Source: Stramonita haemastoma (lineage: Eukaryota > Mollusca > Gastropoda > Neogastropoda > Muricidae). Taken from it: a stretch of DNA of 64,000 bases. The stretch lies in the NCBI GenBank assembly GCA_030674155.1, contig CM060342.1:24530209-24594208 (forward strand). The letters are read 5' to 3'. The notes beneath the pieces were generated by a model. It searched no databases. It saw nothing but the letters and a program-made list of their open reading frames with translations, and was not told where the DNA came from. Made by a program: the position numbers and the translations under genes. Positions within the stretch are counted from its first letter, which is position 1; the number at the start of each line of letters is the position of its first letter. Shown piece after piece: positions 16,201-19,200 of this stretch.

Positions 16201-19200
16201 TCTGTGCGTGCATGCGTGCGTTCAGTGGCTGGCTATGCACGTCCCCTGAGCCAAGTGGGCCCCCTCACCTGTTGAGGGCGTTGAGCATCTCGATGACGAC
16301 CAGCACGGAGAGGGCCATGGTCATGGGTTTGGGGTGACTGAACACCTCGCAGTCGATGCCCGCAAACATCTCGTCCTGAGCCAAGCACTGGGCCTGGTGC
16401 GTCTGCAGGACAGACTCCGGTTAATGCACACGCACCCCCCCCACCCCTCCCGCACCAAGACAAACAACCCCCATGCTCCTCCCACCCTCTGGGGTGCTCT
16501 CCAAAAGAAAGGACACGGAACGAACTGGTGACTTCCATTCAAGGGTACAAACAAACACAGCAAAAGAGCAGAACCGTGTCAAATGTAAAAAAAGAGTTCT
16601 TCCCAAAATCAAGAGAAACAAGTGTTACACCGACAACAGAAAATCATCAGTCCAACCTGTGTGGACACACACAGACAGTTTCAACCCTGGATGATTCTCA
16701 GGACCATCAGGAAGGACCAAAGTGAAAACTGTGGCCACTGGGCAACTGTGGAAGGGGAAGGAAGGTTAGTGACGATGATGCAGCAGCGGTGAGCAGCGCC
16801 GGAGGGGGCTGGCTGGCTGGCGGTGGGGAAGGCATTTGTCAGAAAGAGAACTGTTACTTGCATGCTAAAAACAGTCACTTGATAGGTTGTTTGTCTCAAG
16901 GGGGAAGGGGGGGGGGATTGTGAAACCTGCATTGAGCCATAAAACATGAGGGAGGGGAGTTAAGGAAACCACCATGGGTTATAAAATGTAGGTTTATCAA
17001 AAACAAACCAATCAAGAAAACAATCAAACAAAAAATGCAAATACTGTCCACAATGGGAGTGAAGCATAACCCCTAAAATTGATAAAAATGAATCACAACC
17101 TCGCCTACTCATGGAACAGGAACGAAACAAAATGGCATTACCTATCTACAAGTAACTTTCTCCCTGACAAATCCTTTTCCCACATCCAACTCCAGAGGAA
17201 AAAGATTCAGAAGATGACAAGAGTAAAAGACAAAAAGAGGATGGACGGACTGGGAAAGTGGCTGGGGAAGCACGCGCAACAAAAATCCAAAGCAGAGTCT
17301 CTGCACAAGAAGCGATGTGCAGAAACCAAAGGCAGGGCAGAAGAAAGGAGAGGGGGGGGGAGGGGGGGGGAAGAGAGAAAGAACGGAAGGCCAACGGCTG
17401 TGGAAATGACCAAGTTAATAATGATGACGCATAAAGTGCCAAGGACTCGAGATGGGGGGAGCTGGGAACTGGGGGTGTGAGAGAGTTTTTTTTGGGGGGC
17501 ATAAGAACAGTTACCTGTTGAGGGCGTTAAGCATTTCAATGGTTACTAAAACAGACAGAGCCATTGTCATGGGTTCGGGAGCGCTGAAGATGTTGCAGTC
17601 CACTCCTTTGAACATTCTGGGTTCCGCGGGGCACTGCATGTGGTGCGTCTGAAAACGACGCCAACAACAAACACACATCAATCCTCTTCTCTACCACACA
17701 CACCAGCGCCTGCAACCCTTCCTTCTTGCAGCAAGTACTCTCTTCTTTTTTTTTGTTTTTGGTTCTCTTCTTTTCTGTGATTTCCCACGTTCTTGCAAAT
17801 GCTTTTTACATCCACAAGTTCGTTGTTCACTGCACTCTGTAGCTTTGAAAGCTATCCAAGAAAGCAATCTCTCACTCTCTACATTCCGAGCTTTCTTGCT
17901 GCATGCATGTTTTGAAGATACACAGCACTCAAAACACTCTCCAGTAATAATCAAATCTTCAGACTTGCAATGTAAACATGGTAGACAATGACATACATCG
18001 CACACAGATCTGACACAACTGAACATGCCATCAACTGTTAAGTGTACGCATGTCTTGAGAATTTAATTTGACGTGCAATAAAGTTAATGATCTGAACTCT
18101 ATGTTCAAACAGTAAAAACACTGTTTACCCAGTCTTATACACACACAAGTTATCATTCTAAGCAGGGGACCATTAAAAAACAAAATAAGGAAATGAAGCG
18201 ACTAACACTGAAAACCATACAAAGCACAACTACTATGCTAGTGATCTCACAAACCAACGCAGGTGACACAAACTTGTGTCCTTTCAAGCCAAACAGCACC
18301 CAAAACAAACAACCTTGCTGGAGCCAACTGTGCATGTTGAAGACCCTTTGACGCCAGCTTCAGTGAAGAACACTTTCATGAACACTGCCTTCCATCCACA
18401 CAATCATCAGAATATGGGAGGAGAATCACAACAATTATCTCCCATTTCTTTTAGAGCTACTTCCATGAATTAAAAATAAATAAATAAAACAAAACTCTTA
18501 AAAACAAAATATGAAAGCTATATATTTCAAAAGAAGATATTTCCTTTTTTAAAACAACAACAGAAACAACCAAACTATACTGCTTTCATTCAATGAAATG
18601 AACATATGCTTATCTGAAACATATACTCTGTATGAAAACCAAACTAATCCAATGTATATTCTAAGCAACACTGTAACTTGAACCCCTCCCCCCCAAAAAA
18701 AAACCCCCCCACAAAAAACCCAACAAAACAATGACAAAATCTCCAAGATACAAAGACAGAACATCCTCTCCAACTCTCCTCTCCAACAAGCTCCCCGTTG
18801 TTCCAGGGTTCTGACATTCAGCAGGGTTCATTATTATCTTTCTTTATACCTTGCACTTCACCACAGTGTCAGTCTTGACAGCTGTCATAGCATGAGACTA
18901 GGGCTCAGAGGAGGACGAAAGGTTTGCATCACTCGGCTCATTTGTTTGCTCCCTTGTTTTTCCTTCTCTCACCACGTGCATGTTTACTTACTCATAATCA
19001 GAGTAGACAGCACATTCTTTTGCATGTGATTGAAGTATACTGCAAAACAAGGTCTTCATTTCCTGTCCTCTCCATGAGATCTATGAGCAACCAGATCTCC
19101 CAAGGGCCTTGTGCAGTAAATTCAAACAGCACATCTGTGGGGTCCCACCACACTCATGCATTGTCTTTTCCCCCATGCCTATCTCATGTCCTCCCCTATG

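Follow-up and report, generated by a model that had tools for sequence, protein, structure and literature searches.

A probably old pair of mutually exclusive exons is predicted to recode the luminal M7/M8 loop of SERCA in Stramonita haemastoma and other lophotrochozoans

Introduction

SERCA pumps fill the calcium store of animal cells. The known variants of vertebrates (SERCA1a/b, 2a/b and 3a-f) and those of Artemia, C. elegans and Pinctada belong to the same gene family as the locus described here. According to the accessible parts of two studies, most invertebrates produce several pumps from one SERCA gene, and the variants described there are C-terminal, with no tandem-exon exchange in the L7/8 loop (PMC3527596, PMC6987452); the exon 24 pair that we report, in contrast, is internal.

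Outside the SERCA family, exons 15a and 15b of NALCN offer a close likeness. In the accessible text, they are tandem alternative exons of an ion-transport protein, the upstream one being taken as ancestral and the downstream one as derived and monophyletic; they occur in flatworms, molluscs and annelids, and a charged functional residue is switched between them (PMC3557258). They differ from the SERCA pair in recoding the selectivity filter of a channel rather than the luminal loop of a pump, and they are also found in echinoderms and hemichordates (same excerpts of PMC3557258), whereas a b-type SERCA exon was present in 0 of the 4 echinoderm segments that we collected. Similarly, the excerpts available for coq-2 describe two mutually exclusive exons, 6a and 6e, which are 134 nt long in C. 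elegans, resemble pairs found in parasitic helminths, annelids and molluscs, and remodel the core of an enzyme, with function tested (PMC7434440). The choice there concerns the substrate for rhodoquinone synthesis (PMC7434440, in part), and the 134-nt length common to the coq-2 and SERCA exons is taken as a coincidence.

The luminal loop itself has been studied in human SERCA2a, where, according to a 2025 report, regulation involves the same M7-M8 loop, the same disulfide and an overlapping residue, D878 (PMC11826342). Pumping slowed when E877/D878/E883 were replaced, above all at intermediate luminal Ca2+; in simulations, Ca2+ left more slowly, and the pump no longer transported once the loop disulfide was broken. 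That work relied on engineered mutants in HEK293 cells and on simulations, whereas the exon 24 pair represents natural splice forms. Among the matches listed for the open-licence literature (titles and abstract openings), we found no description of a SERCA L7/8 exon pair; as far as this literature shows, the pair is annotated as database isoforms without a description.

The SERCA gene and its two exons 24

The window, that is, the whole stretch of S. haemastoma DNA that was analysed (64,000 nucleotides), contains a complete SERCA gene, in which exon-by-exon matches to a rabbit SERCA probe (tblastn) run from 60717 down to 4162 on the minus strand.

SERCA (ATP2A) gene: 4081..60717, minus strand; 26 coding exons from tblastn with the rabbit SERCA probe and splice fitting; two isoforms of 1020 aa
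Exon 1: 60717-60600, minus strand; exons 1-3 were refined separately, exon 3 starting from 60191
Exon 23: 19277..19362, minus strand; constitutive, phase 0 end, donor gtaaga
Exon 24a: 17515..17648, minus strand; a-type M7/M8 luminal loop and start of M8, the ancestral-like form
Intron 24a/24b: 16403..17514, minus strand; 1112 nt, GT-AG at both ends
Exon 24b: 16269..16402, minus strand; b-type loop, the derived form
Exon 25: 5758..5875, minus strand; constitutive, joins to either exon 24

The product is a full-length type IIA Ca2+-ATPase closest to SERCA, and the residue numbering of the assembled protein in the exon 24 region is that of rabbit SERCA1. Among eight named gastropods, isoform a is nearest to Babylonia areolata SERCA (96.0% identity over 1006 residues), followed by Batillaria (95.2%) and Littorina (94.2%), a ranking that fits a caenogastropod gene; moreover, exon 24a matched PDB SERCA chains at 2.5e-14. 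A whole-genome search with the exon 24 region, in which 17 candidates were scored, returned three matches, namely 24b, 25 and 24a. Since all three lie in the SERCA locus, the gene looks single-copy. A retrocopy of the spliced message was also sought genome-wide with the exon 24 region and was not found.

Two further features of the gene structure were observed. An 18-nt microexon (60352-60335, minus strand; AGTTGCCGGCAGAAGAAG) lies between exons 1 and 3 and is required for the ELPAEEG motif. Exons 20 and 21 are separated by an intron (21396-20978, minus strand) that starts with ATATCCTTT, carries TCCTTGAC near its end and terminates in AC; it looks like a minor-class (U12) intron of the AT-AC type, and its removal at these borders yields the expected SASEMVL join. 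The Batillaria model P0003 contains additional sequence at this join, possibly because AT-AC sites escape gene predictors.

Exons 24a and 24b are homologous, lie in tandem and agree in length, phase and borders. Both are 134 nt long, start in phase 0 and have the borders cag/ACGCACC ... AACAG/gt; they match at 90 of 134 bases and encode 31 identical and 13 different residues out of 44. Fourteen codons differ synonymously and 13 non-synonymously (NG86 dN 0.25, dS saturated). Their matches to the rabbit probe (9e-14 and 2e-11) place the likeness of the two exons well past chance, and no third copy was found at E<=10 by tblastn on the minus strand of the window. The differing residues are 873, 874, 877, 879, 880, 881, 884, 886, 889, 890, 893, 895 and 906. 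With the helix limits that we assume, 12 of them (873-895) fall in the luminal M7/M8 loop region and one (906) in M8, so that the variation occupies residues 873-906 of 1020 and is not that of a C-terminal SERCA variant. C876, C888 and E908 are identical in 24a and 24b. The original prediction had described exactly this arrangement (equal length and phase, nearly identical borders, 31/44 identity, twelve of 13 differences in the luminal loop and retention of C876, C888 and E908 in both forms), and all of it was recovered at the same positions; hence, the observation of the exon pair is confirmed.

b-type exons in other animals

Protein searches with the exon region were made against a database clustered at 90%, and the best 120 of 632, 1994 and 1623 matches were used; given this, the lack of a match in a phylum carries little weight. 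In the resulting set of 177 exon-24 segments, the window contributes two and 172 proteins the other 175; the extraction pattern left out P0053, P0055 and P0175 as well as the b copy that comes second in P0003 and in P0004. In 51 of the 177 segments the b-diagnostic site is Q, and in every one of these 51 the adjoining residue is D or E. Among the matches listed, b-type SERCA occurs in gastropods (Pomacea, Littorina, Biomphalaria and Gigantopelta), bivalves (Tridacna, Crassostrea, Ostrea, Mya and Mytilus), cephalopods (Octopus and Argonauta) and a chiton (Liolophura), and further in annelids (Lumbricus and Helobdella), a nemertean (Tubulanus) and eleven flatworm rows. The b exon of Littorina shares 43 of 44 residues with 24b of the window.

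Pairs of a and b proteins from the same species are informative as to whether one gene makes both. Littorina P0008/P0025 differ at 14 of 1016 aligned positions, Mytilus coruscus P0044/P0119 at 11 of 850 (with 36 gap columns) and Octopus P0076/P0128 at 9 of 885, in each case exclusively inside exon 24. The lack of any difference outside exon 24 in these three mollusc pairs is the pattern expected of alternative exons of one gene. The Mya pair shows 15 differences inside exon 24 and 7 outside. The Macrostomum pair, with 11 differences inside the exon and 58 elsewhere, appears more like two gene copies. The database annotations of Littorina, Mytilus coruscus and Octopus would fit products that carry one form at a time. 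Besides the window, there are 19 unnamed b rows, of which 18 have a listed contig; these contigs measure 2.6-5.3 kb and code for 637-1020 aa. Set against a gene of 57 kb, such contigs suggest that these rows are probably spliced messages. An observation that counts against the pair comes from the accessible part of PMC6987452, in which a single SERCA isoform is reported for the mantle of Crassostrea gigas.

Sequence comparison thus supports the interpretation that 24a and 24b are mutually exclusive exons whose exchange recodes the luminal L7/8 loop. The C-terminal tails of the Littorina isoforms (P0007, P0008, P0025 and P0026) also vary; since the same tail occurs with either form of exon 24 (P0008 and P0025), the exon 24 and C-terminal choices appear combinable. 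In a second group of trematode SERCA proteins (P0078, P0091, P0166-P0168, P0170 and P0176), the rows seen carry only an a-like loop, of the QLEP, PLEP, SLEP or TLEP type. Two Acipenser rows with a repeated block (P0009 and P0123) were set aside as unrelated to the exon 24a/24b pair.

What separates the two forms

Residues were compared over 22 a and 21 b distinct named lophotrochozoan segments, with the second flatworm genes excluded. Residue 879 is E in 22/22 a and Q in 21/21 b, Q at 879 being the sorting rule for b, so that its frequency in b is circular. Residue 880 is P in 19 of the 22 a segments and D/E in one of them, and D/E in all 21 b segments; residue 874 is M in 22/22 a and A/S in 19/21 b; residue 906 is T in 17 and V/L in 5 of the 22 a segments, and V/L in 21/21 b. 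C876, C888 and E908 do not vary across the 22 a and 21 b lophotrochozoan rows. The single brachiopod row and the single bryozoan row are a-type. Outside Lophotrochozoa, no b-type was seen among 18 arthropod, 3 echinoderm, 3 vertebrate and 1 nematomorph distinct rows.

The net charge of the loop is 0 in 24a and -3 in 24b of the window. In gastropods it is 0 in 7/8 a rows and -3 in 5/5 b rows; in Octopus it is -1 (a) and 0 (b), and in Macrostomum -3 (a) and -2 (b), all within a comparison that leaves out the arthropod and the unnamed a rows. A rule contrasting an acidic with a neutral loop, which holds in gastropods and fails in Octopus and Macrostomum, was consequently dropped. AlphaFold models of both Littorina isoforms (40-row alignments) were too poor to be used (mean pLDDT 59.1 and 58.8, pTM 0.38).

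Possible luminal consequences

We consider it probable (roughly 0.7) that the locus holds an old pair of mutually exclusive SERCA exons that give two pumps with different luminal behaviour. According to the mechanism that we propose, either 24a or 24b, one at a time, would be spliced between exons 23 and 25, and the choice would rewrite the luminal loop closed by the C876-C888 disulfide, the stretch that leads from it back into M8, and residue 906, close to the Ca2+ ligand E908, the remainder of the pump staying unchanged. The relocated acids (E879-P880 in a, Q879-D/E880 in b) could then cause a different luminal Ca2+ exit and a different pumping response to the filling of the store, and possibly attract different luminal partners.

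Human D878 corresponds to residue 879 here (an offset of one), which is E in a and Q in b, and b adds an acid at 880. Since it is through the acidic residues of the loop that human SERCA2a adjusts to luminal Ca2+ (PMC11826342), we infer that isoform-specific luminal gating or regulation is the likely function, which agrees with the difference in pump rate or luminal regulation suggested in the original prediction. The most specific version of this idea, a splice switch dating from the spiralian ancestor that sets luminal Ca2+ sensitivity or transport coupling through E879->Q, 880->D/E and M8 residue 906, is tentative, and as a whole we regard it as possible but doubtful.

Binding of partners is the main rival to luminal gating or regulation. 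The pair could be genuine and exclusive, with the exchange serving luminal partner binding, folding or redox control by proteins of the calnexin, ERp57 or calreticulin type. A study cited in PMC11826342 (seen through the accessible part of that paper) connects the loop disulfide of SERCA2b with calnexin and ERp57, and the net charge shift of the loop has no constant direction across phyla, both of which favour such a role; however, the steadiest change (879 E->Q and 880->D/E) falls on or beside a residue that matters for the luminal Ca2+ response of the human pump (PMC11826342, in part). Hence, partner binding is quite possible, at odds somewhat short of even.

Age and origin of the pair

A tree of 144 distinct segments (LG+G4; 44 columns; identical segments entered once), which leaves out P0098, P0099 and the a parts of P0003, P0004 and P0005, united 40 of the 41 b rows as a single clade (support 96/91). 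The exception, P0095, groups with the a-type P0089 (94/95). Both are environmental SERCA rows, and P0095 combines the b loop motif with an M8 half like that of P0089; it may reflect a sequence exchange between the two exons. In the same tree, a single clade of all 41 b rows was not rejected (p 0.305), an independent molluscan duplication was rejected (p 3e-7) and an independent flatworm duplication was weakly rejected (p 0.039), and the corresponding mixture-model tree required two changes of type. A gastropod-only origin was not rejected either (p 0.137). A mixture-model tree of 79 named rows required three changes of type, and the b rows formed no single clade in its best topology; there, separate origins gave p 0.061 for molluscs and 0.32 for flatworms, and a single b clade was again not rejected (p 0.336).

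These results bear on the possibility that b loops evolved more than once, through separate duplications followed by convergence, in molluscs, annelids, nemerteans and flatworms. Such a history is reported for mrp-1, whose independent origins in other animals are mentioned in the accessible excerpts of PMC7434440. The broken b group and the p values for separate origins in the 79-row tree speak for repeated origin, as does the gastropod-only origin left standing in the 144-row tree, whereas the near-complete b clade, the rejection for molluscs, the weak one for flatworms, the single b clade tolerated by both trees and the two type changes that suffice in the 144-row mixture tree speak against it; on balance, we find repeated origin unlikely. 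This phylogenetic evidence favours, though it does not prove, a single duplication that predates the split of molluscs, annelids, nemerteans and flatworms, since the alignment offers only 44 columns.

Frame, probable exclusivity and its possible control

The original prediction also held that inclusion of both exons or of neither breaks the frame. At the standard splice sites this stands: 24a joined to 24b leads to a stop after 941 residues, skipping of both to a stop after 872, and either exon alone between 23 and 25 gives an intact pump of 1020 aa. It fails at an internal, in-frame donor-like GT in 24a (TTA/GTAACC, after exon base 102), where the shortened 24a followed by 24b reads through to 1054 residues; thus, inclusion of both exons is not strictly impossible.

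It could accordingly be argued that the exons are not strictly exclusive and that a pump with a double loop is also made through this internal donor, and the gene models P0003 (Batillaria), P0004 (Macrostomum) and P0005 (Echinococcus) indeed join a truncated 24a to a full b exon. Such a product, however, would have a shortened M8 and a second loop, and the three models are likely artefacts of predictors preserving the frame, which makes this reading very unlikely. It is hardly credible that 24b represents an artefact of assembly or a duplicate that is dead or not expressed, given the presence of b in many species with 43/44 residues retained in Littorina, the pairs whose differences are confined to exon 24, and the mismatches at 44 of 134 bases between two copies whose borders are intact; by these comparisons 24b appears not to be a dead copy.

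Returning to mutually exclusive use of 24a and 24b, messages that include or skip both exons would be frameshifted and probably removed by decay. The 1112-nt intron between the exons and its GT-AG borders argue against exclusion by steric hindrance (a short intron) or by U2/U12 incompatibility, and with these disfavoured, trans-acting factors together with decay of frameshifted messages would remain; strict exclusivity, its regulation, the decay and the luminal function are inferred. What the sequences show directly is the exon pair with its frame logic, the conservation of both forms in several phyla, and protein pairs of three other molluscs that look like products of one gene. Competing RNA pairing found no support, the 22 inverted repeats near the exons being mostly low-complexity (poly-A/T or G/C runs). 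Pyrimidine tracts downstream of both exons (17394-17327 and 16129-16024) were not taken up as regulatory candidates, since the window contains 27 tracts of this kind, these two included. The hexamer TGCATG occurs twice in intron 23, 0 times between 24a and 24b, and seven times in the 10.4-kb intron after 24b.

Implications

A conserved natural pair that alters only the luminal loop would single out this loop as a regulated part of the pump. If the luminal reading is true, the pair would be a natural counterpart of the luminal control that mutation of the human pump revealed in 2025, with an age of more than half a billion years, and the switch would be set per cell type, for instance, in muscle versus secretory or shell-forming tissue. 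The two forms provide matched pumps, kept by evolution, for testing the feedback of luminal Ca2+ or of luminal partners on the pump, and studies of SERCA in oysters, snails, cephalopods and flatworms may be lumping two distinct pumps together.
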